Shown: in pieces, positions 5,270 to 63,545 of the stretch
How positions within the stretch are numbered: position 1 is the first letter of the stretch
How the letters are laid out: each line of letters starts with the position of its first letter
Origin: a virus
Virus record (IMG/VR): IMGVR_UViG_3300008450_000035
Coordinates: 1-63,545 of that record
DNA length: 63,545 nt
Reading direction: 5' to 3' (one strand)
Made by a program: the position numbers and the translations under genes
The notes under the pieces: generated by a model
Told to the model about the DNA's origin: nothing
The model's database searches: none
Seen by the model: the letters and a program-made list of their open reading frames with translations, nothing else

Positions 5270-5689
5270 GTGAGAAATATTATTAGACAGATATTAAAAG
5301 AAGAAACCAAAATAGCTGACAGAATTAAAAAAATGATTCAGAGGTTATTTCCTGATACATTAGTTTATACTGATTTTTTTTACGATAATTATGATGACGA
5401 GGATGTTGAGTATAATATAAGAATAACTTATAGATTGTCAGAAAAAACAAGAATTAGTGAGGATGAATATGGTGGTGTTAAACCATATGAAGGAGTTATA
5501 GTTTTTGATATTCTAAAAATTGAGTCAACAACATATGATAGTCGTGATGAATATAAAACTTTCTATTATGACGATGACTTACCTGAAGTGGTTTGGGATG
5601 TGTTCCAAGAATCCTTATATGAAAAGATTGAACCAATTACACCATTCTTATATTCCTATATAAGTTTTGATATTAATACAAGAACATAG
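5270..5689 (+). CDS. Leader-tagged protein, class A (139 aa)
   Basis: Starts with GTG. The leader MRNIIRQILKEET belongs to the recurring class A and ends in L-K-E, matching the T4 gp21-type (I/L)-x-E cleavage rule. The rest is acidic and beta-rich with no recognised domain. Its end overlaps the convergent gene by 17 nt. Inferred to be an internal virion protein. Confidence 0.65.
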   Translation: MRNIIRQILKEETKIADRIKKMIQRLFPDTLVYTDFFYDNYDDEDVEYNIRITYRLSEKTRISEDEYGGVKPYEGVIVFDILKIESTTYDSRDEYKTFYYDDDLPEVVWDVFQESLYEKIEPITPFLYSYISFDINTRT

Positions 5690-6683
5690 ATTGAAATGTG
5701 TTAAACGACATTGGTTGTTTAACATTTGGATTATATTTAAATGATACATTCATATCAACAACAGGTCTTCTACCTAATGGAATTGAAAGTCCCCTACTAA
5801 CCTGATACTCCAAAGATTCTTTAATATCGTCCTCACCAACATTTGGCATTTCACCTTTAAAGAATTCACCATCACCTTTAACAACTTTTCTTTCTTCCAT
5901 CTTTTGAACATTTGTTACTAGTACATCAACAATCGCTCTATTCTCAATAACATCAAATGATGTAATCTTAAATGTGACTTTTATTTTACTGTCACCCCAT
6001 CCTGAAGTTATAAATAAGTTTTTGTTTTCAACCTCTGAACTTGTTAATGATGATTTAAAATGCTCTTCTTTCTTTGATATTAATTCATCTAAAGTAATTC
6101 TACCCTCAATAATTTTATTCATTTCTTCTCTTGATACTGAAATCATTTCCTCACCAATTTCTCTATTATATCTGGTAGGACGAGAATGACTCATATGTTT
6201 GGAAGTTGATGAAGAATAATTATAATCTACGGCAAACCATTTACCAAATTTGAATGCGTATATTGGATACCAACCATATGATGAAACAACATAAACCCAT
6301 TCATTATCACGACTATTCTTCCAATTACCCTCCAAGTTAGAACCTTTAAATGGTATTTTGTCGGCAACATAAGTTGAGGATAATGTATTACTTGTTCTTT
6401 TTTGATTTAAGAACCTTTTTGGATCCTTGTAATTAGATTGAGTTACATTCTCATAATCACCATCAGGACGATAGTTTAATGTGTAGATATTATAATATTT
6501 ACGAGCTTCATTCCTTGGAATATTAAATGTGGATAATGAGTTCTCAAAGAAGTCTAACATCTTTTTTTCAGTTCCCAAATCTCTTTTAAATTTATTAACA
6601 AATTTAAAAAGACGAATCTCCATCGGATTGAAGATACTTTTTTCAGTTTCTTCCTTTATAATGTATTTAATTAAATCTTTCAT
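5673..6683 (-). CDS. Leader-tagged protein, class A (336 aa)
   Basis: Minus-strand gene with leader MKDLIKYIIKEET (I-K-E site) and its own ATATTTAT box upstream, so the tag/promoter association holds on both strands. The body is mixed alpha/beta with an aromatic middle (WVYVVSSYGWYPIYAFKFGKW). No family recognised. Probably packaged in the virion. Confidence 0.7.
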   Translation of the reverse strand: MKDLIKYIIKEETEKSIFNPMEIRLFKFVNKFKRDLGTEKKMLDFFENSLSTFNIPRNEARKYYNIYTLNYRPDGDYENVTQSNYKDPKRFLNQKRTSNTLSSTYVADKIPFKGSNLEGNWKNSRDNEWVYVVSSYGWYPIYAFKFGKWFAVDYNYSSSTSKHMSHSRPTRYNREIGEEMISVSREEMNKIIEGRITLDELISKKEEHFKSSLTSSEVENKNLFITSGWGDSKIKVTFKITSFDVIENRAIVDVLVTNVQKMEERKVVKGDGEFFKGEMPNVGEDDIKESLEYQVSRGLSIPLGRRPVVDMNVSFKYNPNVKQPMSFNTFQSMFLY

Positions 6684-6689
6684 CTCTTA

Positions 6690-6697
6690 ATAAATAT
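6690..6697 (-). promoter_or_regulatory. Putative late promoter box, minus strand
   Basis: ATATTTAT on the minus strand, 6 bp before the start at 6683. Confidence 0.55.
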
Positions 6698-6743
6698 ATC
6701 TACAATAATGTTTTGATACATATTATAATTAAATAAAAAGAAA

Positions 6744-7853: not shown

Positions 7854-8450
7854 ATGTCTTATACTAAAGAACAAGTTGAAACGGCAGTAAAAGCCAAAGG
7901 GTATGTTTGGTTTGAAGATACCAACAATAAAGGTTATGATGTTAATATTGTAGGAATTAGAAATTCTGCAACAGGTGATAAAGTAACAAATCTTTTTGAT
8001 GATTATCTAACAATTTCTTACAAAGAAAATGGTGAATGGAAATTCCATATTTGGGCAGCAACAACTGATCCAGGAACAAAAGGTGTAATGCAATATGGTA
8101 ATAAAGCTGGTGTTGCAAGATTGGTTGAGGGACAATATCGTGGTTCACACACTATGAGACTTCATGCTGGTAAATATGAGGCTTTAGGGCAAAACAAACC
8201 TGTGAAAGTATTTAGAGATCCTAACAAGGATATGAAATATGATGAAACCAAAATTCAGGAAGGAGTTTTTGGTATTAATATTCATAAGGCAGGTGCCGAC
8301 TCAACTTATGTTGAAAACTGGAGTGAGGGATGTCAAGTATTTAAAAAATCAAAAGATTTTGAAGAATTTATGAATATTTGTAGAAAGGCTAAAGGGATTC
8401 ACGGAAATTCATTTACATATACTTTAATTGAAACTGCGGATATTAAATAA
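7854..8450 (+). CDS. L,D-transpeptidase-like cell-wall protein
   Basis: 198 aa. The second half carries INIHKAG followed about 15 residues later by WSEGCQVF, the H...S-x-G-C arrangement of YkuD/L,D-transpeptidase-type active sites. The first half (GYVWFEDTNNKGYDVNIVGIRNS) is a common N-terminus of Bacteroidota proteins of this kind. It probably acts on peptidoglycan cross-links; hydrolase or transferase cannot be told. No leader tag. The next gene starts on its last base. Confidence 0.65.
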   Translation: MSYTKEQVETAVKAKGYVWFEDTNNKGYDVNIVGIRNSATGDKVTNLFDDYLTISYKENGEWKFHIWAATTDPGTKGVMQYGNKAGVARLVEGQYRGSHTMRLHAGKYEALGQNKPVKVFRDPNKDMKYDETKIQEGVFGINIHKAGADSTYVENWSEGCQVFKKSKDFEEFMNICRKAKGIHGNSFTYTLIETADIK

Positions 8451-8749
8451 TGAAAATTATTATCACTGAAAAACAAATGTCTAAACTTGCGGGTAATAAA
8501 ATTACCTGCAAGTGTGGACATTCTTGGGTAAAAGAAGATGGTGATGAACACCCATATTTATGTCATTCTTGTGGTTGGGATCAAGACCAAGGTAAGTATG
8601 ATAAAAAAGAACTTAAGAAGTTTTGGGATAATTATGATGGAGAAATAAATGAAAAGTGGTCTGAAAAATACAAACAATCAATAGATTGTAATAATGCAAA
8701 AGGATTCTCTCAAAGAGCACATTGTCAAGGAAGAAAGAAAAGAAAATGA
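8450..8749 (+). CDS. Leader-tagged zinc-ribbon protein, class C (99 aa)
   Basis: Leader MKIIITEKQ (class C, I-T-E). Then C-x-C near 22-24 and C-x-x-C near 39-42, a likely Zn ribbon, and a C-terminal SIDCNNAKGFSQRAHCQGRK segment that recurs in phage small proteins. It overlaps both neighbours (ATGA downstream). Confidence 0.65.
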   Translation: MKIIITEKQMSKLAGNKITCKCGHSWVKEDGDEHPYLCHSCGWDQDQGKYDKKELKKFWDNYDGEINEKWSEKYKQSIDCNNAKGFSQRAHCQGRKKRK

Positions 8750-9291
8750 AACTAATCTTAAATGAAAATCAAATTACCAAATTAGCAATCCAAGGAAACA
8801 AAAGGATTAAGAATGCGATATTCAAAATATGGAATGATATCGGAGATAACGATATGCTTTTTGCTCAAACACATAATATATTAGGGTTTTCACCTGAAAC
8901 AATTGAACAAACCACAGGTTTAGGACGCACATTATCAATGTATTATTTAGAATGGAAAGGTGGTGTTGATGAAAACGGGAATTTAAATTTTTCAAAATTG
9001 GAAGAAGAGTTATTTAAGCCAAGAACTATTACCTCATCTCATTTGAAAATTAAATTAAATTATGAACCATTTGATTATGAGATTGAGAATGACAAAGTAC
9101 CATATGACATTCTTGTTAAAATAAAGATTTGGGAGAATTGGGGTGCTAAATTTAAGGAATATTATGATGATTTTGGTGATGATAGTCAGGTAGTTCATGA
9201 TGTTTTATATGATATTTATGAAGAACTAAATGCCGAAATATACAAAAAAACAGGATTTTTCATAATGACTATTATGGAATTTGTTGATTAA
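8746..9291 (+). CDS. Leader-tagged protein, class C (181 aa)
   Basis: Start placed at 8746 because it restores the leader MKLILNENQ (L-N-E) and gives an ATGA overlap with the previous stop. The body resembles the gene at 40387: both have FKIW/FKLW, then L...YLEWKGGVD / MLVEWYGGVD and a long alpha/beta tail. The two homologues carry different leader classes. Confidence 0.65.
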   Translation: MKLILNENQITKLAIQGNKRIKNAIFKIWNDIGDNDMLFAQTHNILGFSPETIEQTTGLGRTLSMYYLEWKGGVDENGNLNFSKLEEELFKPRTITSSHLKIKLNYEPFDYEIENDKVPYDILVKIKIWENWGAKFKEYYDDFGDDSQVVHDVLYDIYEELNAEIYKKTGFFIMTIMEFVD

Positions 9292-11234: not shown

Positions 11235-12845
11235 ATGAAAGATCTAATCCGACAAATATTAAGAGAAGATATAAGTACAAGTTTACCAATTAAACTTAGT
11301 GGTAGTTATAGAGTTCCAAAAAATATACCATCACGAGGAGATGCATTACACGCATTCAACAGAAGAAAATCTGATGGGTTTGGTGGATATATGTTAACAG
11401 GTGGACCAATACCAAGTCAATGGAGCGGTTATGTTACACTAAATCAAGGGAAAGGTATTAATCAAGTTTTAAGAGAGTTAATTGACAAAGGCGTTAAACC
11501 TGATGTTACAGATATTACTATTAATATTAATGATTATACTGTTAATTGGAGTGCAACTATTGATGAGAGTAGTGATGGTAAATCATATTATGGTGTAGGA
11601 TCAAGAGGTTCTGCTGGCGGAAATGCCGATTCAAGAGCGTTAGGACAGATATCAAAATTAAAATCTAAAAATCCTGAGTATTGTAATTGGAAAGAAGTGT
11701 TGGATTTAAATGTAACAACACCGTTTAAGATTAGACAATTCTTTTTAAAATACACTAAATGTAAAGAAGGTGAAGAAAATGATGTTGATAAACTTTATGA
11801 TAAATTAAAAACTAAAGGAGGTAAGAATTTAGAAAATAAAGTTAAAGATTGGATTAAAGATACTGGAATTGAAAGTAAATTCAAATCATTCAAAGACATT
11901 ATCAACTCAAATGAGTACAAGGATTTGTTAAAGTTTCTTGAAGTTAAGGAATCAATACAACTAAAGGAAGAATCTAACATACAATCAAGATTAATTTCTG
12001 TAATGAAAAATGCAGGATTTAAAACCGCCGCAGATTCCGTTGGGGGAATTGAGAACCTATTCAGAATACTTGGTAGGGATAAAGAAATTACTATGAAATA
12101 TCTTCTTAGTCATTTTAATGATTTAAAACTTGAAAAGTTCGGAAATGGATTTTATTTGTCTCAGGGTTATAATGCATTTTTAGAAAAGGATTCACCATTT
12201 TGGGGTGGAAATATAAAAGTATTTGATGATTACTTTTCCCATTTCTTGCATGACATACCTTATGAATTATACCTTGAATATAGAAAAGATTTACTGAGAG
12301 AAATAATAAGTAGATATCCTGAATTAAATGATGGGAGTCAAGTAATCGTATATAAAGACAGAGGATTATATCAAATATTAGACAGGTTTTATGTAAATGA
12401 TGAGGTAATTACCGAAAGCACTTCAAGAAAAGATAGAACCATTTCAATGATAGATGACATCGGTATTTTGGATACAATACAATTAGTAGGAGGTATTGAT
12501 AATCTAAAACGAATTTTAGGTAATGATTATTTTAATAAACATAAAAAAATTGAAGTAATTAGTGAAATTGCAGGTCATTTTGGAGGTAGAGGTGAAATAC
12601 ATTTTAGTGATTTTGATATTGATGTTAGTTTAGGTAAGGATGTTTATAGTGATGGAAGTTATCAAGAGACATTTGTACATTATGTTGATGATAATGAATA
12701 TTTTTACCATAAAACATGGATGTTTGATGAAGATGGATGGATGTTGGATGAACCAATTGATGAAGGATATATGAATTTATATAGTTTGGTGGATTATCAA
12801 ATTGATGAAATATTTAATGTATTAATTGATAAATTTTTAATTTAA
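11235..12845 (+). CDS. Leader-tagged multidomain protein with two VGG domains (536 aa)
   Basis: Leader MKDLIRQILRED (class A, L-R-E). Residues about 15-225 are a Gly-rich domain with no clear homologue. Then two copies of a recurring module, AGFKTAADSVGGIENLFRIL near 260 and IGILDTIQLVGGIDNLKRIL near 415, each preceded by an (I/L)-x-E site (LKEES and ITEST). This layout suggests a polyprotein cut into three parts by a prohead protease. The product is probably internal to the virion. Confidence 0.7.
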   Translation: MKDLIRQILREDISTSLPIKLSGSYRVPKNIPSRGDALHAFNRRKSDGFGGYMLTGGPIPSQWSGYVTLNQGKGINQVLRELIDKGVKPDVTDITININDYTVNWSATIDESSDGKSYYGVGSRGSAGGNADSRALGQISKLKSKNPEYCNWKEVLDLNVTTPFKIRQFFLKYTKCKEGEENDVDKLYDKLKTKGGKNLENKVKDWIKDTGIESKFKSFKDIINSNEYKDLLKFLEVKESIQLKEESNIQSRLISVMKNAGFKTAADSVGGIENLFRILGRDKEITMKYLLSHFNDLKLEKFGNGFYLSQGYNAFLEKDSPFWGGNIKVFDDYFSHFLHDIPYELYLEYRKDLLREIISRYPELNDGSQVIVYKDRGLYQILDRFYVNDEVITESTSRKDRTISMIDDIGILDTIQLVGGIDNLKRILGNDYFNKHKKIEVISEIAGHFGGRGEIHFSDFDIDVSLGKDVYSDGSYQETFVHYVDDNEYFYHKTWMFDEDGWMLDEPIDEGYMNLYSLVDYQIDEIFNVLIDKFLI

Positions 12846-12852: not shown

Positions 12853-14223
12853 ATGATTACAAAATTGTTAAAAGAAGAATTATTTAGAATACAAGACTTA
12901 ATGAATATTAAGAGAACTATTCTTAATGAGGAAAAAGCCGCAACCTCTACAGTTGAGGGAAAATGTTTAAATCTTAAAGATTATTCAAAATCGTTTAGTG
13001 CCGCTCAGGCAGCAACTGATTTAAGAGCACAAGAATTTATAAATGGTATTTTAGAGTATGTTAAGACAACTACACCTGATTTATATAGTAAATGGCAATC
13101 AGGAACATTTTTAAGTATTAGTAAAGTAACATTAATTGGATGTGCATCAAATAGGGTGACAAGTGATAGAGAAAAAAAATATGTTCAGTATTCATCTACT
13201 GGTGGTAGAGCAGTGTTACCTACTATGGATAATAATTATGTGGTAAAAACATATAATAAAGCTTCTTATAATACTGTGTTATCAGGTTCGGGAATAAGTG
13301 ATTTAAATTATCCAGAATACCAAGTATTTTTTGATGATAATCTTAAATATGCGTCAGACAGAGTAAATAACTTATGGAAAACAATGAAAAACCTCTTAAC
13401 AAAAAACAGAATTGTGTTTATAGACACACCAACAATAGAAGCTCATATAGTTAATACGGGTGGAAGGTTAGATGAAAATAGAGACACCGCAAGTTACCCT
13501 AATCCAGGACAAATAGTCTTATTCAAAGGTACAATCTGTGAATATAAAGGAGAAAGAAGTCCTGATTTATCTTGTATTAAAGGGTTAACGGTTGAGTTTA
13601 ACTATGATGAAGTTGTTGAAGCAACGGAAGGTGCCGCACATTGTTGTAATAAAGGTAGATTTAACTTAACACTAAATGGTGAACCAATAGTTAGAGATGA
13701 TGGTAAATTATACGCAAGTGTTAACAACGCGAGTGCAGAACAAGAAGAAACAGGATATGGAAATGAATTTTACAGAACCACGAAAGACTCCAAAGGAAAG
13801 GATGTTTTAAATAAAAATGTTTTTGGAAAACTTGGTACTATGGATATACAAGTTTTACCTGATAAAGAACAGTTGACAAGTGTTAGATGGAATAGTACAC
13901 ACAAATGTTGTGAAACTACTAAAAACCAAGGAAATATGAAAAATAAAGATCGAAAAACCGCTTGTTTTCCTGCGGGAAATTATAGATATAATGTCTTTAC
14001 AATTGATGATGAAAAGGCTAAGGCAATATATGATAAGGCAGTTGCAAATAATGATAAATTTTTGACTTTAAAAAGTAGTACTGATCATCCTGAAGCTCAT
14101 AAAGAATCCGTAAGAGTTTTAGTAAAAAATGCAAACGGGGAAACCGTTTATGATGTTATTGGTAGTCCATATGGACCGTTTCAAATACCATTCTGTGCTA
14201 AACCAACCAATATAGTAGCGTAA
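12853..14223 (+). CDS. Leader-tagged protein, variant leader (456 aa)
   Basis: Starts MITKLLKEELFRIQDLMN and reaches TILNEE at about residue 27, giving two (I/L)-x-E sites. The body is beta-rich with many Cys (CCNKGRF near 258, HKCCETT near 347) and no known catalytic motif. It follows the 536-aa gene by 7 nt without its own late box, so it is likely co-transcribed. Confidence 0.65.
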   Translation: MITKLLKEELFRIQDLMNIKRTILNEEKAATSTVEGKCLNLKDYSKSFSAAQAATDLRAQEFINGILEYVKTTTPDLYSKWQSGTFLSISKVTLIGCASNRVTSDREKKYVQYSSTGGRAVLPTMDNNYVVKTYNKASYNTVLSGSGISDLNYPEYQVFFDDNLKYASDRVNNLWKTMKNLLTKNRIVFIDTPTIEAHIVNTGGRLDENRDTASYPNPGQIVLFKGTICEYKGERSPDLSCIKGLTVEFNYDEVVEATEGAAHCCNKGRFNLTLNGEPIVRDDGKLYASVNNASAEQEETGYGNEFYRTTKDSKGKDVLNKNVFGKLGTMDIQVLPDKEQLTSVRWNSTHKCCETTKNQGNMKNKDRKTACFPAGNYRYNVFTIDDEKAKAIYDKAVANNDKFLTLKSSTDHPEAHKESVRVLVKNANGETVYDVIGSPYGPFQIPFCAKPTNIVA

Positions 14224-14235: not shown

Positions 14236-14583
14236 ATGAAAGATTTGATTAAACATATATTAAAAGAAGAAACAGAACCAAATGATATTGATAAAAAACT
14301 TCTTAATTTTTTATTGAGAAGAGTTAGAATTGAGGAAAAAGATTTGGGAACCGATTGGCTTGATAATAGACCCTTAAGAGTTACAGAATATAGATTTGAG
14401 GGATTACCTGGTTATGGATTTAATAGTTTTAATAATAAACCAACAATGGAATATAAAATTATTGAAATGTTATATGAAAATGACATAACCGAATATGTTT
14501 ATAACATGAATGAAAGAAATCCTGAAAGAATAAAAATAATCAAAACCATAAGACATTTTTTAAATAATCTATTAACAAAATAA
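14236..14583 (+). CDS. Leader-tagged protein, class A (115 aa)
   Basis: Leader MKDLIKHILKEETE (L-K-E). Short helical body ending in FLNNLLTK. A weak box (ATATTTTTAT) precedes it. It shares its final base with the next start (TAATG). No domain recognised. Confidence 0.6.
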   Translation: MKDLIKHILKEETEPNDIDKKLLNFLLRRVRIEEKDLGTDWLDNRPLRVTEYRFEGLPGYGFNSFNNKPTMEYKIIEMLYENDITEYVYNMNERNPERIKIIKTIRHFLNNLLTK

Positions 14584-14990
14584 TGAACTTACAAGAAAAT
14601 ATACATAGGATTAAATCAATGATGGGTTTATACGAACAAACATCTGAGATTAAAGTTAAGGCATCTATTGAGGGACTCATTAATTTCTTTGATCCTGCAA
14701 ATAAAAAAGTTTACAGGTACCAACTTCAAGCCAAAGTGGATGAAAAAACTTCAGTTAATATATTTGTTAAATCAATTGATGATATAACTGGTAGTTTAAC
14801 TTATATTAATCCTGAAGATGATACTGAAGAAACACAACAAATACCTGTAGATGAATTAAATAAAATTAAACTTGATTCACCAAAAAAAATGGATATTAAT
14901 AATATCTTATCATTTAGAAAATATCTAAAGACAATAGAGATTAATTTAATATTTGTTGAGGAAAAACAGTTACAAATTGTTAGTCATTAA
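14583..14990 (+). CDS. Leader-tagged protein, MNLQE-type (135 aa)
   Basis: Leader MNLQENIHRIKSMMGLYEQ, ending in L-Y-E, nearly the same as the leader at 20909. The body is a beta-rich domain (residues 25-110) of unknown function. Confidence 0.6.
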   Translation: MNLQENIHRIKSMMGLYEQTSEIKVKASIEGLINFFDPANKKVYRYQLQAKVDEKTSVNIFVKSIDDITGSLTYINPEDDTEETQQIPVDELNKIKLDSPKKMDINNILSFRKYLKTIEINLIFVEEKQLQIVSH

Positions 14991-15280: not shown

Positions 15281-16060
15281 ATGAAAGAACACATAAGACA
15301 TATCTTAAGAGAAGAAACCTCAAGACAAACCAAACTCATTCATATGATAACTAATTTGGGGTTAACCAATACCGCAAAAGCCGTTGGTGGATACAATAGA
15401 TTAGTTAAAGCATTAGAAGGTACCCATTTTTTTTTAACTCAAATTGATATAACACCAATAGATATTCGTTATTATTTGTCTGGTAGTAGAGGACAAGGTA
15501 AAGGTAATCTTTTTTATAGAATTATTATGGACCCTTATGATTTTTGGGATAGTTGGGAAGATTATGACACATACCAATTAATGGAAGAATTAAATGAGGA
15601 AAATCTTAAAAATGTAAGAAAAATATTATCTGAAGAGGAAGGTGAGGATTTATCGGATATACCTTTAAATGAATTACTTTGGTATGATCAATCTGATCGT
15701 ATTGGTAACGCTTTGAGAAATTCGGCAAATATTGTTGATGGAGATGCTTATGGTGATCACTTATATAAACAGATGAGTGATGCTCTTGAAAAATACGGAG
15801 GAAAAGTATTGGAGTTCAATAACGAAAACATATCCTTCACCGTAGATATGGAAACCTATATCTCAGAATTAAATGATGAAACAATTGATTATATTATAGA
15901 AAGATGTGGACTTGATTTCTCTTGTTTATTTGATGAGTTAAAGAGTGATGGTTGGATAGATAAACCAAAACCGAGATTCAATGAGGATTGGTACAATAAT
16001 AACTTTGATACCAAGTACTTCAACGAGGTATTTTCAGACAATATAGGCGAATATTTATAA
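15281..16060 (+). CDS. Leader-tagged VGG-domain protein (259 aa)
   Basis: Leader MKEHIRHILREETS (L-R-E), then LGLTNTAKAVGGYNRLVKAL near residue 30, the recurring VGG module, and a long acidic C-terminal region. Related in layout to the genes at 16065 and 23062. No catalytic motif. Confidence 0.7.
   Translation: MKEHIRHILREETSRQTKLIHMITNLGLTNTAKAVGGYNRLVKALEGTHFFLTQIDITPIDIRYYLSGSRGQGKGNLFYRIIMDPYDFWDSWEDYDTYQLMEELNEENLKNVRKILSEEEGEDLSDIPLNELLWYDQSDRIGNALRNSANIVDGDAYGDHLYKQMSDALEKYGGKVLEFNNENISFTVDMETYISELNDETIDYIIERCGLDFSCLFDELKSDGWIDKPKPRFNEDWYNNNFDTKYFNEVFSDNIGEYL
16051..16058 (+). promoter_or_regulatory. Putative late promoter box inside upstream CDS end
   Basis: ATATTTAT 6 bp before the start at 16065, overlapping the last codons of the preceding gene (EYL). 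Confidence 0.5.
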
Positions 16061-16064: not shown

Positions 16065-17102
16065 ATGAAAAAACTCATAAGACATACACTAAAAGAAGAA
16101 ACAGGAATACAAAATAGATTAAATCAATTAATCAAACAAAGTGGTATTATAAATGCATCAAATGCGGTTGGTGGTTTTACTAATTTAGTGAAGATATTGG
16201 GGTTAGAAATGAGTGATTTAAAAACCCAAGAGATGTTAGTTAAAAACTTTATTTATTATGTAGATATAGAAGATATTGATATATCACATTTAGAAATTAA
16301 TAAAGATAGATCAGATAAAGTAAGAATTAAAATACATTTTGAGACAAATAATCCTGCCAGTAATATGGAATCTTGGCTTGTAAGGACTTTATGTGATGAA
16401 ATGAATAAGTTTTTTCCATTTAAAACAGCAGCATCCTGGGAACCTGCATTTGCTGGCAGAGGTGTAACGGTAATATTAAATTCTGAAAGAATAGAGGAAA
16501 CTGATGAAATAAATGAATCATCATATATCCGTCCTGAAATTAGACGAAGAGTACGAAATTTAGATAGATTGGTTAATGCAATTCTACCTAATCTTTATAC
16601 TTGTGACTATCCCAATGGAGAGACATTTATTCAAGGAGTTGTGGATGAGATACGATGGTTATCTTTTGAGGATGATTATGGTTTACAGGATTTAAAATTT
16701 GAAGAACTTTCAGATTTCGTTTTTAATTATATGGGTGATGAATTGATTGAGTATTATGAAGACAGATGTAGTGGTATGATGGAAAGTAGAAAGATTATTA
16801 AAAAAGTATTAATGGAGGAAGAAATTAAAAAATTACCATCATTCTTTACAAGAAGAATCGATCATCACAAGTTTGAGAAGATGATGAGAAAAGGAATACC
16901 ATATATATTTCACGATTCAAACTCATTAGAAGAGTTTAAATATAAATTGGTTGAGGCAACATTAGAAAACTATATACACTATAAGTATGAAATAAATATT
17001 GATGAACTACCACAGGAAGATAAAGACACATTCATAAAATATATGATAGAAGTATATGATCCAGTATTAACGGCATATTATAGAAACTTTTATAAAAGAT
17101 GA
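16065..17102 (+). CDS. Leader-tagged three-module protein (345 aa)
   Basis: Leader MKKLIRHTLKEET, then a VGG module (INASNAVGGFTNLVKILG near 28-45). An INESS site near 148 is followed by a helical RRR domain (IRRRVRNLDR). A second internal leader-like SRKIIKKVLMEEE near 241 precedes another RRR-type domain (FFTRRIDHHKF). This alternation of cleavage sites and domains is the clearest polyprotein-like architecture here. Confidence 0.7.
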   Translation: MKKLIRHTLKEETGIQNRLNQLIKQSGIINASNAVGGFTNLVKILGLEMSDLKTQEMLVKNFIYYVDIEDIDISHLEINKDRSDKVRIKIHFETNNPASNMESWLVRTLCDEMNKFFPFKTAASWEPAFAGRGVTVILNSERIEETDEINESSYIRPEIRRRVRNLDRLVNAILPNLYTCDYPNGETFIQGVVDEIRWLSFEDDYGLQDLKFEELSDFVFNYMGDELIEYYEDRCSGMMESRKIIKKVLMEEEIKKLPSFFTRRIDHHKFEKMMRKGIPYIFHDSNSLEEFKYKLVEATLENYIHYKYEINIDELPQEDKDTFIKYMIEVYDPVLTAYYRNFYKR

Positions 17103-17428
17103 AAGAACTAATCAGATATATATTAAAAGAAGAAGTTAATCATAAAAAACTAAATATGATTAAGAAATATGTTGAGAAATATATTGATAGTAACAAAAAT
17201 CTTAAAGGTAATGTGTGTGAGGTATCGGCTCAAAGTGATAGAGGAACAATTGTTGTTGATATTTATATAGATGATGATCATTATATATCGTTAGATTATG
17301 AATATAACTTGTATTTTTTACAAAAAAATATTGAAAGTAAAATAATGGAAGCATTTGGGATTAAAAATAGATATGACATTATTGTGTACACAGAAAAATG
17401 TTCATCAGATAGACTTACATATGATTAA
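17099..17428 (+). CDS. Leader-tagged protein, class A (109 aa)
   Basis: Leader MKELIRYILKEEV (L-K-E), ATGA overlap with the previous gene. Body about 95 residues, alpha/beta. No family recognised. Confidence 0.6.
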   Translation: MKELIRYILKEEVNHKKLNMIKKYVEKYIDSNKNLKGNVCEVSAQSDRGTIVVDIYIDDDHYISLDYEYNLYFLQKNIESKIMEAFGIKNRYDIIVYTEKCSSDRLTYD

Positions 17429-20522: not shown

Positions 20523-20786
20523 ATGAAAAAAGTTATAAGATTAACAGAAAGTGAATTAACTCGTCTGATTAAAAGAATCATTAAAGAAAATGAAGATGAT
20601 ATAGATATGTCTAATTACTCAAACGATGACAGACTAAAAGGACTTAAAGATCAAATTATCACTTATTTAAATGATAATGGGGTTTATCCTAATGAGGAAT
20701 CTGATGATGATATTCTTGATGAATTATATTCCTTATATAGTCAAAGAGATCCACAAGCAATTAGATTTGTAAGAAGATTAAGCTAA
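20523..20786 (+). CDS. Leader-tagged protein, class B (87 aa)
   Basis: Leader MKKVIRLTESELTRLIKRII then KE (I-K-E), followed by about 60 acidic helical residues. No domain recognised. Confidence 0.6.
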   Translation: MKKVIRLTESELTRLIKRIIKENEDDIDMSNYSNDDRLKGLKDQIITYLNDNGVYPNEESDDDILDELYSLYSQRDPQAIRFVRRLS

Positions 20787-46370: not shown

Positions 46371-46374
46371 TAAT

Positions 46375-51849: not shown

Positions 51850-52377
51850 TTATTGTCCTTTAACTAAATTAACACATTGTTTTAAGTACTCTTTAGTTCT
51901 TGGGGATGGAGTATACTCGTCCTCTTTAACCTGTAGATTCAATATCTTTTCAATATCTTTAACTAATTCAGTACCGTGCTCGTTTTCTTTATATAATTCA
52001 ATGACTTTATCCATTGCTTTATGACAATCCCCACTAGTTTCATCATAATAGTTCTTATTTCTGAATCTGTTGAGATTATTCATCATTTCGTAAGCCAAGT
52101 GTTCTCCACCATCTTTAATGTCCTTAAACAATCTAATATTGTTTAATATACCCAATGTATCAACAAATCCATTAACACCTCTATTTCTTTTTGTAACTCC
52201 TGGTGAGTATTTTGCAAATTCCTCAGAATCCCCAACGATTTCATCCAACTGAATTATATTCTCAGGAATACATCTTGGTTTAACTTTTTTCTTTTCTGCG
52301 GAACTCATGCTATCATCTTCTTTGATGATTTTATATAGTGCTTTTCTAATATCACTTTCTTTAACTAATCTTCTCAT
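51850..52377 (-). CDS. Leader-tagged protein, class A-like (175 aa)
   Basis: Start at 52377: MRRLVKESDIRKALYKIIKEDD (I-K-E near residue 20). Helical body with a Lys/Pro segment, KKKVKPRCIPENIIQL. Own late box upstream on this strand. No family recognised. Confidence 0.65.
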   Translation of the reverse strand: MRRLVKESDIRKALYKIIKEDDSMSSAEKKKVKPRCIPENIIQLDEIVGDSEEFAKYSPGVTKRNRGVNGFVDTLGILNNIRLFKDIKDGGEHLAYEMMNNLNRFRNKNYYDETSGDCHKAMDKVIELYKENEHGTELVKDIEKILNLQVKEDEYTPSPRTKEYLKQCVNLVKGQ

Positions 52378-52441: not shown

Positions 52442-53074
52442 ATGAATAATATTAAACAGATTGTTAGAAGAGTTATTTCTGAAACTTTTATACCTAATAT
52501 GGTTTTAACTGAAAATGTTAAAATATCTAAGAATTTGGATTACCATATTAATAATAAAATTACTTTATCTGAAAGTGTTTTTAGACCATATTCGGATAGC
52601 TATTTTAATTTGGTTTGTGAAGTTAGAGATTTATATAATAACGGATCAATTCAATTAAATAGATCAGACAAATGGTTAATTGAAACTGATTTAGGTAAGA
52701 TGGTTAAACTATCTTCAGGTGAATATGTTTCATTGGATTGTCCTTATTTAATGACTGAGGAAGAACTATTATCTGAAGCTGAATATCAAGGTAAAAAAGT
52801 TAAAGTTGGTTACCCAATGAGAAACTCTGGTGGTGGTAAAAAGTATAAAGTATATGTTAAGAACCCATCGACAGGTAAAATCAAAAAAATCACATTTGGT
52901 GATGTACATGGAGGATTAACCGCTAAGGTGTCTAACCCTGAAGCGAGAAGAAGTTTTGCGGCAAGACACAAATGTAAAGATAAGAAAGATAGAATGAAAG
53001 CTGGTTATTGGGCTTGTAGAATTAATCGTTATGGACACCTGTGGGGTGGTAAAACATATGGAGGTTATTGGTGA
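52442..53074 (+). CDS. Leader-tagged virion-type protein (210 aa)
   Basis: Leader MNNIKQIVRRVISET (I-S-E) with further sites (LTEN, LSES). The C-terminal 75 residues (ITFGDVHGGLTAKVSNP..RRSFAARHKC..KKDRMKAGYWACR) match a basic domain found in head-related proteins of T4-like phages (DUF5872-type). This is the best structural clue that tagged proteins belong to the capsid. Confidence 0.65.
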   Translation: MNNIKQIVRRVISETFIPNMVLTENVKISKNLDYHINNKITLSESVFRPYSDSYFNLVCEVRDLYNNGSIQLNRSDKWLIETDLGKMVKLSSGEYVSLDCPYLMTEEELLSEAEYQGKKVKVGYPMRNSGGGKKYKVYVKNPSTGKIKKITFGDVHGGLTAKVSNPEARRSFAARHKCKDKKDRMKAGYWACRINRYGHLWGGKTYGGYW

Positions 53075-55511: not shown

Positions 55512-56111
55512 ATGAATATCAAGGAAACAATACGAAAAATAATCAATGAAGACAATAGGATGAGAGAACCAATTCGTAAAATAGTTAGAGATATAATATC
55601 TGTGGTTAAAAATGAAGATGAAGGAGAATTTTATTTGCCTGAATACTTTGAAGATGATGATTCCATGGTTTACGAGTTCAATAAGTTAAATCCGTTCTCT
55701 GTTGATGTAATTATTGAATATGGTAAATATGGTGTAAATGCGTCTTATGTGAGAGATGATGAAACCATAATGGTTAAAATCCAATATGGTAAAAACGATA
55801 AAAATAATATTTTATATAAATTAATTGGTGAACTTAACGAATTAATTGCTCACGAATTAAGACATCTAAAACAACACAAATTAGGTTTATTTGATTTAGA
55901 TGTTGAGGAACCCGAATCTCCTTTGGAGTACTATACTCAACCTCATGAAATAGACTCCCAATACTTTGGATTTAAGAGGTTGTCCAGGTTAACAAAAAAA
56001 CCATTTAATAAAGTGGTTAAAAATTGGTTTGATACCCACAAAGAACTACATCAATTAAATAATAATGAAGTTGAGATTGTTGTGGATAAAATTTTAAATT
56101 ATAGAAAATAA
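55512..56111 (+). CDS. Leader-tagged zincin-like metallopeptidase (199 aa)
   Basis: Leader MNIKETIRKIINEDN (I-N-E). At about residue 115, LIAHELRHLKQ is an HExxH zinc-binding motif, followed about 30 residues later by QPHEIDSQYFGF with a possible third-ligand Glu. A packaged protease would be injected with the DNA or act in head maturation. It is not recognised as the gp21-type (serine) prohead protease. Starts 1 nt before the next gene. Confidence 0.7.
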   Translation: MNIKETIRKIINEDNRMREPIRKIVRDIISVVKNEDEGEFYLPEYFEDDDSMVYEFNKLNPFSVDVIIEYGKYGVNASYVRDDETIMVKIQYGKNDKNNILYKLIGELNELIAHELRHLKQHKLGLFDLDVEEPESPLEYYTQPHEIDSQYFGFKRLSRLTKKPFNKVVKNWFDTHKELHQLNNNEVEIVVDKILNYRK

Positions 56112-56494: not shown

Positions 56495-57111
56495 TTTCTG
56501 AATCTATTAATAATTTTTCTGATTACCTCTCTAACAATAATACTTGATCCGATAATCACACCATAACTTAATAGTCTTTTTATAATTTGATTAATAGTTG
56601 TTTGATCGAATCCCATTTGAGCCATTTCATACAATTGAGGTAATATCGGAATTAAAAATGTATATGCCAACATATTAGATACTTTGAACATCGTTATATT
56701 CAAACTTTCTACAAAGGATAAAAAAGTATCTTTAAGATTATTTGCCGCAGATAACATCTTATCAAATACCTCAACTAATCCCCTTTCTTTAATCTCAGAA
56801 AGTATTTTTACCAAAGCCTTTTTGTTTGAGGTGTAATAAGTAACCATAACTCCCGTAACAAGTAAAGATAAATCAAGACTTGTTAATTCAGGATGTTCAC
56901 CCTCAATAAATTTTGTTACTGGCATCATTAAACCGCCAAGGGTTGATCCCCAACTTAATAAGAATCCAAAATCAAGTCCTGTTACCGTTTTAGCTTCCTT
57001 TAAAACCTTTTCAGTAAACTCACCCATTGACTTATAACTCTTCAAAATCTTCTCAGATAAACCTTCGGTTAACAATAATTTATTCTGATTTTCTGATATT
57101 ACTACTTTCAT
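56491..57111 (-). CDS. Leader-tagged membrane-associated protein, class C (206 aa)
   Basis: Leader MKVVISENQNKLLLTEG (I-S-E, L-T-E). Hydrophobic stretches near 48-65, 78-95 and 138-160 suggest membrane insertion. Similar in style to the gene at 42268. Own late box on this strand. Confidence 0.65.
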   Translation of the reverse strand: MKVVISENQNKLLLTEGLSEKILKSYKSMGEFTEKVLKEAKTVTGLDFGFLLSWGSTLGGLMMPVTKFIEGEHPELTSLDLSLLVTGVMVTYYTSNKKALVKILSEIKERGLVEVFDKMLSAANNLKDTFLSFVESLNITMFKVSNMLAYTFLIPILPQLYEMAQMGFDQTTINQIIKRLLSYGVIIGSSIIVREVIRKIINRFRN

Positions 57112-57833: not shown

Positions 57834-58532
57834 ATGGCACAATATTTTTTCGGAATAACAAAAGAGGAGAAAGAAAATATTCTTAACCAACATAAAACCG
57901 TTTATGACGGATATGTTACCCAATATGGACAAAGTAATGAACAACCTTTATATGTTCAAGATTTTGCTAACGATAAGAACGGAATTACCGTATCTAATAA
58001 AGGTGAGGTTAAAACCTATACAAATATGAACATCAACGAGTCTCACTCAGGTTTGGACATGATTGGTGACGGTGATGATGATTTAATTAATGGAACCGTT
58101 GATATTGATGATGAGTCAAACTGGGAAGATGAAGGTATTGAATTCATTTCATTAGGATTGAGTGATGATGACTGTCACGAATGTGGTGGTGAAATGGAAG
58201 AAGGTTGGGATAGTCCGGAAATGAAAAACCGTTATGATGATTATTCATCTAAAGATTATAGAGATTTACCAAAAGTATTTGGACACGGAATGTCTGATTA
58301 TGAAGGAACAAGATTAATTGATCCTGAAATGGAAGATGACGATTTTGAGGAATTTAACGATAATTATAACGATGATTTTAATTACGGTGAGGACTTTGAG
58401 GATGATGATGATTTTGAACCAATATTTGAAGATAATTTCTCTGATGAGGTGGATGATGAAATCCTACCTGAGTTTACAGAAAAGTTGAATGAATCATTGG
58501 ATATGTTTAGAAGATTTAAAAAATATAATTAA
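57834..58532 (+). CDS. Leader-tagged acidic protein, class D-like (232 aa)
   Basis: MAQYFFGITKEEKENILNQH resembles the class D leader but its E spacing is not I/L-x-E; the first such site is INES near residue 65. Extremely acidic, with a CHEC Cys pair near 117 and Asp/Glu runs. Acidity fits an internal or DNA-mimic role; unproven. Confidence 0.6.
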   Translation: MAQYFFGITKEEKENILNQHKTVYDGYVTQYGQSNEQPLYVQDFANDKNGITVSNKGEVKTYTNMNINESHSGLDMIGDGDDDLINGTVDIDDESNWEDEGIEFISLGLSDDDCHECGGEMEEGWDSPEMKNRYDDYSSKDYRDLPKVFGHGMSDYEGTRLIDPEMEDDDFEEFNDNYNDDFNYGEDFEDDDDFEPIFEDNFSDEVDDEILPEFTEKLNESLDMFRRFKKYN

Positions 58533-59470: not shown

Positions 59471-59722
59471 ATGGAAACAAATTTAGACGAGTTAATTTAC
59501 TTGATGAAAAAATATACCTATACCGATGATAATAACGGTGAAATAGGTGAACAAGACGAAGGTGGGGGAGCGGCTGCAACAGGAGGTGGTGGTGAAGGAT
59601 ATCCTACCGTTACAAAGTGGGAAACAGGACTCACTAGAAGTGTTGCAAATACCATAGACGATAAAGTGACTTGGAAGTCCTTGAATAAACTTGTAAGGGG
59701 TAAGGCAAACACATTATTATGA
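59471..59722 (+). CDS. Leader-tagged Gly-rich protein (83 aa)
   Basis: METNLDELIYLMKKYTYTDD... reaching IGEQDE (I-G-E) near 26. A GGG-AAATGGGGEG linker is followed by YPTVTKWETGLTRSVAN. Overlaps the next gene by 4 nt. Possibly a minor virion protein. Confidence 0.6.
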   Translation: METNLDELIYLMKKYTYTDDNNGEIGEQDEGGGAAATGGGGEGYPTVTKWETGLTRSVANTIDDKVTWKSLNKLVRGKANTLL

Positions 59723-60996
59723 ATAATACTGATGAAATATTGAAGAGAATACTTCTTAATATGAAGTACGATTCAAGAAAAACTTTGAGTGAAAATAGTA
59801 GTCTATTATCCGAAAATGATAAAAGGGATACTAAAGAATATTGGGACAATCTTTACAAAAAAGGTAAAGTAAGTAAAGATATGTATGATTATCATATTGA
59901 AAGGATTGAGGGTTTAGAATTAACTAAATCTTTTACTAAAGGTATGAAACAAAAAGAATTTCAAGGTAACGAGGAATGGAATGATCAACCCAAAAATTCG
60001 GTATATAATGTTTATGACAAATCAACTATAGTAACTTATAAATCTGTAATACCTGGCAAATTTTTAACCGCACCTTTACTTGGGACACCTAGTGTAAAAC
60101 CATTATCTTACCATAGTAAAAATCAACCTTACTACGAAGAAGGTGCAAAAAGAATGTTTGGGTTGGCTTGTCAAGTACTTTCAGGGACAAATGATAAATA
60201 TAAAGTTGGGTATGATAATATGACAGATTATTATATGGATGATAATGGTAATAGATGTCAACCAACAAAATCATACATTGAGATAACAAATACTGGTAGA
60301 GATAAAAAGTACGATTACCAAAGAATATCCGACATGGATAATAGAAATAAGGAATACTTTTACCGACAAAAAAATACTACAGAATGGAAAACACCGAATT
60401 ATAAGATGAAAGAATCTATAATGAGTGGAGTTACATTTGATTCAGGAGGAATAAACATCCAAGGGATAAAACAAAGAACTAAATATGAATACCCAGCAGG
60501 ATGCAAACCTTTACCATTTGATACTTGTTTAAGATGGTCGTGGAGATCACTTTATGAATATGGAGGTGTTGATGGAGGACTTGATTCATTTGAATATTTT
60601 GAGAACAAAGACTCAACAAAAATAACTTATAAAGCGTGTATTAGGGTTGATGACTTTTACACACCTTGGTTATCTGAATATGCTGGTTATTATGATACAT
60701 CAAAAATATCGGAAGGTAGTTATAACGAATCTTTAGGGGTTAAAATTGGGATGACTTGTCCTAAAGGTGCGATAACGTCATTACCATCAACACCAAGTGT
60801 TTATTACGGTAGTGAAAATAATCAATCAGTTTCTGATTTAGAGAAAAAAGATGAATTGGCTCGTAAATATTCCGCAGAAGCGGAATCTTACTATAAAGAA
60901 AAATCCGCATACAATAGAGTAGGTGAAAGAACACAATTAGAAATTGATGCAATGTCTTCAGTAGTATCGGGTGGTTTAAGAATTGTAGGAAAATAA
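59719..60996 (+). CDS. Leader-tagged protein, long variant leader (425 aa)
   Basis: MNNTDEILKRILLNMKYDSR... with LLSEND (L-S-E) near 33. The body is mixed, with many Tyr, Lys and Gly, and no catalytic motif. Part of a run of three tagged genes at 59471-63262 that look co-transcribed. Confidence 0.6.
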   Translation: MNNTDEILKRILLNMKYDSRKTLSENSSLLSENDKRDTKEYWDNLYKKGKVSKDMYDYHIERIEGLELTKSFTKGMKQKEFQGNEEWNDQPKNSVYNVYDKSTIVTYKSVIPGKFLTAPLLGTPSVKPLSYHSKNQPYYEEGAKRMFGLACQVLSGTNDKYKVGYDNMTDYYMDDNGNRCQPTKSYIEITNTGRDKKYDYQRISDMDNRNKEYFYRQKNTTEWKTPNYKMKESIMSGVTFDSGGINIQGIKQRTKYEYPAGCKPLPFDTCLRWSWRSLYEYGGVDGGLDSFEYFENKDSTKITYKACIRVDDFYTPWLSEYAGYYDTSKISEGSYNESLGVKIGMTCPKGAITSLPSTPSVYYGSENNQSVSDLEKKDELARKYSAEAESYYKEKSAYNRVGERTQLEIDAMSSVVSGGLRIVGK

Positions 60997-60997
60997 T

Positions 60998-63262
60998 ATG
61001 GAAAAGAATTTAAAACAAATATTATCGGAAATGAAAAAACTTATGGAATATAACCCATCCATAGGTAAAATAATTAACGAACAAGATCCAGATTTTGACA
61101 TTGACCCAAGATTAGGTTCTCAAAAATCTGATCGTTTGGGTAAAGGAGGTACATTTGATAGACAACAAAAAGAATTAACAAGAAAAGGTGTAAAATCAAC
61201 TGATGGATATTTTTATAGACAAAGTTTTAATGAACATAAAGGATACTTTGATAATAATATGATGTTAGGAGAATGTTTTGACATAATCAATTTCACAACA
61301 AATGATAATGCACTAACTTCAATGAATATTCCTAAAGATAAAATGTTTAAAGACGAAATCGGGTATTATATTAAAGGTAAAACCAATGCATACGGAGATT
61401 CAAGAGACATTAGAATTTATTTACCAAAAGATGATTTTTTTAGAAATTTAAATGGTGTTGTTAAATCATTTATTGCTTACCAAACTTGTAATGATCAAAA
61501 AAGAAAACAAGGAGGTAGAAAATATAATTTAGTGTATCAATTAACAGATCCATCAAAAGCGGTTATAAATCAAATTATTGACGGTAATGGGTTTCAAATC
61601 ATTGACGGTGAAGTTTCAAGAGGGTGGACAATAAGTCAATTTGGTGGTAACCAGTCTGGGTATTTTAGAAGTAAATCTGAAGAATATGATGATGTAATTG
61701 GTGGTGATCCAAGTTTAAAGGGATCTTTATTACCTCAAGATTTTTCTGAATTTTCATTAGATAATTACGGTGAAGAATATGGTAGATCAGATTTTGATAT
61801 ATGGTATGATTCTGGTTGGGGAACTGCTGTGAGTATTGGTGTTGCAATTTTAGCGTCTATCGTTACTGGTGGTATTGCGGCAGGTGTTGGGCTAACAAGT
61901 AGATTCGCAATTTTAGGTGCCGAATTGGCGGGTGAATTATTAATTGCGATACCTGAAGCAATATATCTAAAAGGTAGAGGTTTAAATAGCGGTGCCGCAA
62001 TGGTATTATTATTTTCATTGATACCCGTATTAAATGCTAGTGGTTTTGCAAAAAAAATAACAGGAACATTAACAGATAAAGAAATATCGAATTTAATTAA
62101 AAAGATATCACAAGATGCAGAACAAGGTGCGTTTAAAACACCTGGAGATGTTAAAGCATGGATTAAAGGTTTAGATGATAAAACAAGAAAATTTGTTGAG
62201 GAAACATTACAAAATGGTTCGGACGCATTAAAACAGGTTAATAAAGAAGTATTAGTTAAAGATATTAATGATGGTTTAAAAAAAATACTTAATGAAGTTA
62301 GAACAAATAAAGTGGTTACTAAAGAAATTGCCGAAAGTGTTGACAAATTATTTGCTGATTACGCTAAAAGTTATGCAAGCACATTTAAATTAATAGGACT
62401 TGATTTGGTGGCGGTTTTTTCGTCTATGCCAATAATTAAAACATTAGTTAAAGACGATGAAGAAATAATGAAAGACCCTCAAGGTTTTTTAGAAAATGTT
62501 AAGAAGAACATTGAATTGGTTTTTGGAAATGCTGACGAAAAGATTAGGAAAAAAGCCGAAGAGGAATGTAAAAAATTACAATCAGATTTTATTAATGCAA
62601 CAACAACAGATGAACAATTAGAAAAAGGTAAATTATATCTTAATTTTTTAAGGGATATTGGGAATACCGGCAAAATAGATTATGAAGAAATGAGTACTGA
62701 AGCATATAAAGTTTTGTTACAAATGGTTTTATATGATATTAAGAAGGAATATTATGTTGCTTATGCGAATAATCAAACTAAAGAAATTTTAGAAAGTAAG
62801 AATAAATATAATCAATTAGTTAACACTACTGAAAAATTTGAGCAATCCCTATTAAGTTTTTGTTCTGATTTACCAATGACACCATTTCAAAATTATCAAG
62901 AGGCTTGTGAGTTTTTAACTTGGGTTAGTACAAATAAAAAGAATTTTTATTTCACAATTTCTTTTGAGGATGGAACTGAAATGACGGTTATAGGAGTTAA
63001 ATCTTGTGATTTTAAGAAAAATGAATTGGGTTATTCTGACTCATTCATTATGAATGAATGTGAAATTAGAAATGCATATAGTCAATATGGTACGGAGTAC
63101 TCAAAAATAGTTCCGACTACTATTACATCATCACAAGTAAGTGAAACTAAAAATTGGCAATATAAAGATAGTGATGGGAATTGGGTTGATTGTACCAAAA
63201 CTCAAGCCGATGCTAGAAAAAAGAAAGGTCAAGAAATTAGAGAAAAACCAAAAATGAATTAA
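60998..63262 (+). CDS. Leader-tagged large protein with TM region (754 aa)
   Basis: MEKNLKQILSEMKKLMEYNP.. IINEQ with three (I/L)-x-E sites in the first 25 residues. A hydrophobic region near 275-330 (AVSIGVAILASIVTGGIAAG, LAGELLIAIPEAIYL) lies between soluble domains, then a long helical region and a C-terminal beta part. Could be a DNA-ejection or membrane-penetration protein; guessed from layout. Confidence 0.65.
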   Translation: MEKNLKQILSEMKKLMEYNPSIGKIINEQDPDFDIDPRLGSQKSDRLGKGGTFDRQQKELTRKGVKSTDGYFYRQSFNEHKGYFDNNMMLGECFDIINFTTNDNALTSMNIPKDKMFKDEIGYYIKGKTNAYGDSRDIRIYLPKDDFFRNLNGVVKSFIAYQTCNDQKRKQGGRKYNLVYQLTDPSKAVINQIIDGNGFQIIDGEVSRGWTISQFGGNQSGYFRSKSEEYDDVIGGDPSLKGSLLPQDFSEFSLDNYGEEYGRSDFDIWYDSGWGTAVSIGVAILASIVTGGIAAGVGLTSRFAILGAELAGELLIAIPEAIYLKGRGLNSGAAMVLLFSLIPVLNASGFAKKITGTLTDKEISNLIKKISQDAEQGAFKTPGDVKAWIKGLDDKTRKFVEETLQNGSDALKQVNKEVLVKDINDGLKKILNEVRTNKVVTKEIAESVDKLFADYAKSYASTFKLIGLDLVAVFSSMPIIKTLVKDDEEIMKDPQGFLENVKKNIELVFGNADEKIRKKAEEECKKLQSDFINATTTDEQLEKGKLYLNFLRDIGNTGKIDYEEMSTEAYKVLLQMVLYDIKKEYYVAYANNQTKEILESKNKYNQLVNTTEKFEQSLLSFCSDLPMTPFQNYQEACEFLTWVSTNKKNFYFTISFEDGTEMTVIGVKSCDFKKNELGYSDSFIMNECEIRNAYSQYGTEYSKIVPTTITSSQVSETKNWQYKDSDGNWVDCTKTQADARKKKGQEIREKPKMN

Positions 63263-63278
63263 AATAATCTATACTATA

Positions 63279-63545
63279 ATGCGAAAAATAATTACCGAAA
63301 TAAACAGAATTAGAGAAATGATAGGAGTATCCTTAATTGTTGAGGGTATTGGTGATGTTTTAAACATATTTACTAATTTAGGTAAAAAAAGTATTAAAGA
63401 ATTAAGTAATGAGGAACAAGAAATTATAAGTAAACTCATTAAAGATTCTGCCGAAATACAAAGAGCCGGTATAAGAAGTATTGATGATGTTATGTCAGAT
63501 GCTGGAAAACAATTATTATTAAAAACCATTAGAGAAAATAGTGTT
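63279..63545 (+). CDS. Leader-tagged protein, partial (at least 89 aa)
   Basis: Open to the window edge, no stop. Leader MRKIITEINRIREMIGVSLI (I-T-E), then IVEG. It continues the tagged run; the true length is unknown. Confidence 0.6.
   Translation, partial: MRKIITEINRIREMIGVSLIVEGIGDVLNIFTNLGKKSIKELSNEEQEIISKLIKDSAEIQRAGIRSIDDVMSDAGKQLLLKTIRENSV

Follow-up and report, generated by a model that had tools for sequence, protein, structure and literature searches.

Short shared leaders ending in (I/L)-x-E on some fifty genes of a jumbo phage resemble the capsid-targeting propeptides of T4

Passages of published work on phage T4 describe internal head proteins with a short N-terminal targeting sequence: for targeting IPIII, its first 10 residues are enough, the residues for targeting and for processing are separable, and the prohead protease gp21 cuts after L/I-x-E (PMC9026906); the core and its copy numbers are treated in PMC9958956. 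IPI blocks a restriction enzyme (PMC9026906, PMC3012670), the internal proteins of T-even phages are diverse defence proteins with only the targeting sequence in common (PMC3012670), and IPIII is needed for infecting one E. coli strain and works untagged in the cytoplasm (PMC9391042). For phage SPN3US, similar extracts report 14 cleavage sites in nine proteins (PMC10052503) and the cleavage motif A-x-E (PMC5694885). Freshwater Bacteroidetes phages of up to 331 kb have a similar structural block, and one of their proteins might be encapsulated; the passages available from that article (PMC9723584) do not mention leaders of the kind described here. In this work we analysed a 63,545-bp stretch of viral DNA, IMG/VR record IMGVR_UViG_3300008450_000035 (the window), in which about fifty genes begin with one of a few shared N-terminal sequences, called leaders in the following. 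Judging by titles, beginnings of abstracts and passages, no paper that we found in the open-licence literature in PMC describes this set of leaders. In the papers searched we met neither proteomic data on a phage of the group that bears leaders nor a proteome of immuto, a cultured Flavobacterium phage.

The window corresponds to positions 31141-94685 of a 304,365 bp record, IMGVR_UViG_3300031857_000005 (G001, the parent genome), with an identity of 99.998%. Among the 109 genes called across it, 50 leader genes were curated between positions 5270 and 63545, namely 17 of class A, 7 of class B, 13 of class C, 5 of class D and 8 of class E, a further mixed leader type, with leaders of 11-32 residues, in agreement with the initial annotation, which had announced some fifty proteins sharing few leader classes. 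Within a class-specific range, [ILV]-x-E was present in 41 of the 50 leaders (A 17/17, B 7/7, C 5/13, D 4/5, E 8/8), a descriptive count, as the ranges were fixed after inspection of the sequences and a permissive one, residues 14-34, was used for class E. The leaders without it belong to class C (8) and to class D (1), so that classes A, B, D and E together gave 36/37.

The sharing of N-termini was compared with chance by scanning the first 20 residues across all pairs of genes with unrelated bodies, with internal segments as control. At a score of at least 50, 46 of the 354 genes of the parent genome shared their start, against 4 in the control, and at a score of at least 44 the figures were 60 and 6; the scan also picks up ordinary family similarity, and most of the 9 matches beyond 120 kb in this genome appear to be of that kind and not leaders. 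At the higher threshold, other records gave 41 genes versus 5 in the control (G003, 337 genes), 30 versus 10 (G006, 300), 30 versus 0 (G007, 321), 21 versus 2 (G002, 324), 12 versus 0 (G004, 232) and 24 versus 0 (G009, 266), immuto gave 8 versus 0 (202 genes), and Mel-JY01 gave 0 versus 0 (206 genes). In T4, used as positive control (150 of 169 kb; 7 versus 0 of 212 genes), the scan recovered the leader of IPII and IPIII and otherwise homing endonucleases; IPI and Alt were not recovered. In crAss001 (100 of 103 kb) none of the 89 genes reached 44 or 50, and 2 reached 38. In the parent genome, 34 of 380 genes matched a pattern of helix plus site within their first 26 residues, versus 11 of 2538 internal 26-residue blocks. 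Since this pattern, taken alone, overlooks many leaders of classes C and D and catches a few ordinary helices (such as an epimerase-like start in immuto), we relied on tests in which each class was defined in a fixed way.

With residues 1-9 as the sole definition of class B, 45 proteins were retrieved; three were dropped because of similar bodies, and the remaining 42, from six genomes, have bodies without detected similarity to one another. In this set, residue 22 was Glu in 40 proteins (3.3 bits), residue 20 was I, V or L in all 42, and residue 21 was the least constrained of the leader (1.0 bit). At successive positions past Glu22 the information was 0.94, 0.37, 0.18, 0.14 and 0.01 bits: conservation runs to Glu22 and then collapses. 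When class A was defined by residues 1-6, Glu11 was present in 22 of 38 proteins, a set that takes in signal peptides and other non-leaders, and conservation was lost by residue 14. In the non-redundant sets of the other two classes, (I/L)-x-E occurred at residues 16-32 in 16 of 17 class D proteins, compared to 17.8% of control windows, and at residues 13-20 in 18 of 35 class C proteins, compared to 9.1%. Early (I/L)-x-E sites therefore exceeded the matched controls, both with the helix-plus-site pattern and in the sets of classes B, C and D, as the motif search proposed at the outset had anticipated. The I-T-E triplet, originally listed among the leader ends, is unlikely to be where classes C and D are mainly cut, because a second (I/L)-x-E is enriched downstream of it; from these sequences, class D and about half of class C are likelier to be cut at this second site, past I-T-E. 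The residue following the Glu was most often Gln in class D and Asn or Ser in class C, with Gln in 8 of 16 class D proteins and Asn or Ser in 9 of 18 class C proteins.

A gp21-type protease had been expected in the rest of the genome, and it was present in the parent genome (PF03420, 3.0e-23), together with a portal and gp23 in a T4-type head module. The 30 records of at least 59 kb that lie behind 80 listed loci, out of 111 stretches with the class B leader, were then tested: PF03420 was found in 21 of them, gp23 in 18, and both in all 8 records longer than 230 kb; of 12 records searched for the T4 portal family, 4 had it, including one, G028, without gp21. An alignment of gp21 sequences (16 of the 21 jumbo phage proteins plus immuto) had a sole PDB match at 0.001, namely T4 gp21 itself (5jbl, 2.4e-22). 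In this match, ELNHP and GISSRG of the alignment face ELNAP and GVASRG of the crystallised chain; we take these positions to be the catalytic His and Ser, presumably changed for crystallisation. Read from the alignment, (L/I)-x-E stands near the C-terminus in 16/16 of the jumbo phage proteins, and the immuto protein has no such motif there. Moreover, in gp23 the sequence L-I-N-E/A (the slash marks the junction after Glu) lies just before the mature region in 18/18 sequences, several of them near-identical, and the same triplet is found in several class B leaders.

Between the protease and gp23 lies a strongly acidic protein (net charge -70) without a match in PHROG, which we infer to be a gp22-like core protein. 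A further protein of 238 aa, starting with MKFGLLKSQIENILIES, is encoded between the portal and gp21 (G001 134290-135006; L161:14290-15003) and may be a gp67/gp68-like core protein of the group. In a 484-kb phage, LR756508, the gp21-like protease (LR756508.1 156480-158204; L300:6480-8201) is 574 aa long and has a long insert right after ELDHPD that, by eye, looks like an intein.

Shared leaders, a conserved junction and the leader swapping described below were thus observed, with the protease and the gp23 motif in the same genome, and the leaders are, very probably, T4-type capsid-targeting propeptides in a greatly expanded system. The short, probably helical leader would dock an unrelated protein onto the acidic, gp22-like core of the prohead; a serine protease of the gp21 family would cut after the Glu of (I/L)-x-E, freeing the body inside the head; and many of the tagged proteins would be injected along with the DNA. 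The lineage would have multiplied this tag, up to about 50 tagged proteins of five classes in 63 kb. The large arsenal of T4-type internal proteins suggested by the initial annotation is supported by gp21, by the junction in all 18 gp23 sequences and by the excess of sites over controls. The same leaders could instead dock to the prohead core, or to another structure of the phage, and never be removed, (I/L)-x-E being just the end of an amphipathic helix, as the half of class C that has no second site might indicate; a helix followed by a linker, as predicted for one leader (see below), fits a tag whether or not it is cut. We consider this unlikely. A protease site is the better fit to the conservation of position -3 and of the Glu, with a freer residue in between, to the Q, N or S that often follows the Glu in classes C and D, and to the recurrence of the motif at the gp23 junction.

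The leaders also proved to be exchangeable between bodies. A gene that lies about 4 kb from gp23 and contains the motif RYMFFSNL begins with a class A leader in four genomes and with a class B leader in G002; a body with the motif YEDxxGSVEExN has a class C leader in G002 and a class A leader in G006; and in the window the paralogs at 17471 and 40950 have homologous bodies behind leaders of classes B and C. The window gene at 14236 is of class A, and its best match in G009 (43.7% identity) has a start of class C/D type. On this sequence evidence, leaders of at least the classes A, B and C can stand in for one another in front of homologous bodies. Body clusters obtained by single linkage at E<1e-4 were dropped, since they merged unrelated families, and the swaps were for this reason re-derived from stricter pairs; the largest cluster of these (42 members) still looks mixed, and only swaps readable in the sequences were used.

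For the RYMFFSNL gene at least 597 related stretches were found in viral contigs, of which 80 were kept and 78 were readable, with 44 distinct leaders. Each of these leaders has [ILV]-x-E, never before residue 8; three B/C-like starts were split at the first site by rule, and the other linkers are 4-14 residues long. When 36 of the 80 were aligned, Glu16 was the sole invariant residue before residue 23, an invariance that covers only the later part of the leader because many rows begin at about residue 6-10. A low-confidence model of this protein, with a mean pLDDT of 60.5, has a helix at residues 3-15 and then a low-confidence linker at residues 15-22. As a separate observation, the third gene after gp23 in the parent genome (141671-142969; L162:1671-2966) starts with a class A leader and carries, further inside, a complete one of class B, as if two tagged proteins had been fused.

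These data bear on a further possibility, namely that the shared starts have nothing to do with targeting and are relics left by the duplication of genes or by recombination at conserved 5' ends. There are indeed tandem arrays of similar genes (23062-24740), and leader DNA is 74-80% identical within the parent genome, so that a shared ancestry of the leaders is likely. However, among 13 class B leaders of this genome, whose DNA identity was 74%, compared to 39% in the upstream and 33% in the downstream flank, 37% of the identical residues are encoded by different codons; judged from this codon usage, the leaders are conserved as protein. The site, moreover, is kept in all the distinct leaders of the RYMFFSNL gene though much of the leader varies, and homologous bodies bear different leaders, which makes mere relics very unlikely.

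As for the spread of these elements, the DNA pattern of the class B leader, searched by exact matches, occurred in the 111 stretches of viral contigs mentioned above, and was not found in a collection of cellular genomes of 84,980 species (exact matches; contigs of at least 3 kb); the class A and class D patterns gave 26 and 10 stretches, respectively. Named phages gave no match when searched by tblastn with the 754-aa gene or with the class B leader. Immuto has three small families of shared leaders, with about nine tagged genes. LR756508 has a leader family of its own, with 42 of 608 genes at a score of at least 44 versus 2 in the control; in a set defined by a pattern picked after inspection, [ILV]-x-E was present in 21/21, compared to 31% of control windows, and many of its leader genes lie at 140-195 kb, around its gp21 and gp23. 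That the leaders address another place in the infected cell, such as a membrane, the secretion route or a phage compartment, is barely likely at all: they share with some targeting peptides their shortness and, by eye, a basic and amphipathic character, and the phage encodes a protein of T9SS type, but the window leaders appear to have no hydrophobic core of a signal peptide and have a Glu at the end, the class B pattern is missing from the cellular genomes searched, and a leader-bearing core gene lies close to gp23.

More tentatively, and with less than even confidence, the leaders might be seen as modular address labels, interchangeable and perhaps compartment-specific tickets into the prohead core, by which T4-related jumbo or huge phages would load dozens of fast-changing effectors per virion, each lineage evolving its own family of labels, as LR756508 may have done.

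Several observations weigh against the reading of the leaders as capsid-targeting propeptides. By eye, they show no clear likeness to the T4 tag beyond a Lys at position 2 in many of them and the cut motif, and the second (I/L)-x-E is missing from 17 of the 35 non-redundant class C proteins (8 of 13 in the window). No gp21 or other prohead protease was found in the window itself, because the window is a fragment. Neither gp21 nor the T4 portal was found in 8 of the 30 records, four of which have a weak, below-cut-off match to gp19 and four do not; in G014, G024, G027 and G030 (60-118 kb) none of the T4 families searched was found. Mel-JY01 has gp21, and a shared start at a score of 44 in 3 of its 206 genes, without the cut motif; therefore the protease does not imply an arsenal of this kind. 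G009 (224 kb), one of the eight records with neither gp21 nor portal, was discarded as a counterexample: it is syntenic with the parent genome, and its gp21 is lacking because the two ends of the contig flank the head module and leave out the stretch of about 94-166 kb.

Concerning the bodies behind the leaders, which had been named as ferritin-like, metallopeptidase, zinc ribbon and ParB-like, the first was borne out (Pfam Ferritin, 2.8e-18, window 38704-39306). Among 20 leader proteins scanned one by one, the only Pfam matches above the curated cut-offs were ferritin/rubrerythrin and DUF6576, and there was no significant match to a metallopeptidase or ParB; for the zinc ribbon there was one match of a double zinc ribbon, at 0.0011, in one of the first 52 proteins. 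The ferritin-like protein has a leader-like start ending in L-L-E, and from its sequence it is possible that it is a packaged iron-binding or DNA-protecting protein.

The phage, a T4-related jumbo phage, probably has a Bacteroidetes host, because window proteins matched CHU_C (type IX secretion), SprB and PKD domains in a family scan, and because one cultured relative found by the gp23 search infects Flavobacterium. What speaks against this host is that two gp23 matches ranked higher, one to the 484-kb phage, which is uncultured, and one to a phage with Microcystis as its recorded source. In the wider family scan, made on a second set of window proteins, the first 25 of 34 matched families were listed. 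The leader genes of the window are collected in Table 1.

Table 1. Leaders curated in the window. The slash marks the junction after Glu; several start codons are ambiguous.
Class	Leader	Position	Strand	Gene	Remark
A	MRNIIRQILKE/	5270..5302	+	5270-5689	GTG start
A	MKDLIKYIIKE/	6651..6683	-	5673-6683	
C	MKIIITEKQM	8450..8479	+	8450-8749	leader-like start, without second (I/L)xE
C	MKLILNENQI	8746..8775	+	8746-9291	variant, without second site
A	MKDLIRQILRE/	11235..11267	+	11235-12845	
E	end TILNE/	12853..12930	+	12853-14223	
A	MKDLIKHILKE/	14236..14268	+	14236-14583	
E	MNLQENIHRIKSMMGLYE/	14583..14636	+	14583-14990	
A	MKEHIRHILRE/	15281..15313	+	15281-16060	
A	MKKLIRHTLKE/	16065..16097	+	16065-17102	
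A	MKELIRYILKE/	17099..17131	+	17099-17428	
B	MKKIIRLTESDLTRIVNRVINE/	17471..17536	+		body homologous to class C-tagged gene 40950
A	MNLKESIKKVLRE/	19036..19074	+	19036-19794	
B	MKKVIRLTESELTRLIKRIIKE/	20523..20588	+	20523-20786	
E	MNLQEQISRIQSMMGLNE/	20909..20962	+	20909-21640	
A	MNLQEHIRRVLRE/	22383..22421	+	22383-23078	
A	MKELIRHIIKE/	23062..23094	+	23062-23496	
A	MKELIRHIIKE/	23502..23534	+	23502-23933	
A	MKELIRHILRE/	23933..23965	+	23933-24391	
A	MKELIRHIIKE/	24393..24425	+	24393-24740	
A	MNIQENIRRILRE/	24749..24787	+	24749-25162	
C	MKIIITENQN	28839..28868	+	28839-29135	start, without second site
C	MKIIITEEQY	29154..29183	+	29154-29480	start, without second site
D	MKKFIITEEEKSRILGMHKSYASMINE/	29580..29660	+	29580-29918	
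B	MKKIIKLTESDLTRIVNRVINE/	30407..30472	+	30407-30721	
E	end RFLNE/	30734..30808	+	30734-31273	
D	MKHILNDISLEDKKRILE/	31411..31464	+	31411-32217	variant
B	MKKVIRLTESDLVRIVRRVIKE/	32240..32305	+	32240-32560	
C	MKFIITESRY	33470..33499	+	33470-33829	start, without second site
D	MGKFIITEEEKNSIRKMYLME/	33852..33914	+	33852-34334	
C	MKYIITETQD	34744..34773	+	34744-35049	start, without second site
C	possible site IVE/	35040..35111	+	35040-35369	
C	possible site VKE/	35372..35446	+	35372-35722	
C	MKIIISESQK	36605..36634	+	36605-36952	start, without second site
C	MKYIITESQH	36963..36992	+	36963-37640	start, without second site
D	end QYLTE/	37680..37769	+	37680-38243	
B	MKKVIRLTESDLTRIVKRVINE/	38247..38312	+	38247-38681	
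E	end GLLE/	38704..38766	+	38704-39306	before ferritin-like domain
A	MREIIRKVLLE/	40387..40419	+	40387-40953	
C	MKYLITESQYEILIE/	40950..40994	+	40950-41432	before DUF6576-containing body
B	MKKVIRLTESELTELIHRIIVE/	41493..41558	+	41493-41882	
C	MKIILSESQYIKLITE/	42268..42315	+	42268-42873	
B	MRRLVKESDIRKALYKIIKE/	52318..52377	-	51850-52377	variant
A	MNNIKQIVRRVISE/	52442..52483	+	52442-53074	
A	MNIKETIRKIINE/	55512..55550	+	55512-56111	
C	MKVVISENQNKLLLTE/	57064..57111	-	56491-57111	
D	MAQYFFGITK	57834..57863	+	57834-58532	class D-like start, no site in range
E	end SLLSE/	59719..59814	+	59719-60996	
E	end KIINE/	60998..61081	+	60998-63262	
E	MRKIITEINRIREMIGVSLIVE/	63279..63344	+		gene continues past window end

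Outside the leader genes, positions 43926-48953 of the window encode in a row two large proteins and a short protein of response-regulator size, all without leader; matches to CHU_C, SprB, PKD, PAS, GAF, HATPase and response-regulator families were obtained for the set, and their assignment protein by protein is presumptive. Convincing genes are scarce at 25163-26038 and 50768-51424, and a search of the whole window with ARAGORN gave no tRNA. At its two ends (363-3523 and 301461-304364) the parent genome encodes proteins with similar N-termini in the same gene order (a001, a003-a005; a377-a380), which suggests that this block is duplicated.

If the proposed reading is true, the leader would show, from sequence alone, which proteins are packed and probably injected by a jumbo phage, many proteins of environmental phages now labelled 'hypothetical' would become candidate effectors of the first minutes of infection, and further tags would be at hand for loading foreign proteins into phage heads.

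Among the known systems, the leaders resemble those of T4, as described in passages of PMC9026906 and PMC9958956, in that a short N-terminal tag with an (I/L)-x-E junction stands on unrelated bodies, and, as in T4, there is a protease of the gp21 family and a gp23 with the same motif as the leaders. Unlike T4, which has three internal proteins and Alt, the window alone holds about 50 tagged genes with five leader classes, and the leaders are 11-32 residues long, on bodies that are mostly unknown. With phiKZ and SPN3US the phage would share giant size, many internal head proteins and a gp21-related protease (passages of PMC5694885 and PMC10052503). By contrast, SPN3US has A-x-E and mostly propeptides of more than 100 residues; the phiKZ/SPN3US type, A-x-E (or S-x-E) with long propeptides, was not what we observed in the window, where the leaders are short, the site, where found, is (I/L/V)-x-E, and the candidates are far more numerous. 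Another of the close systems is immuto (NC_055915), a cultured T4-like relative with gp21, gp23 and families of shared leaders, which differs in its 160-kb genome and, by the patterns used, in having no leaders of class B, C or D.

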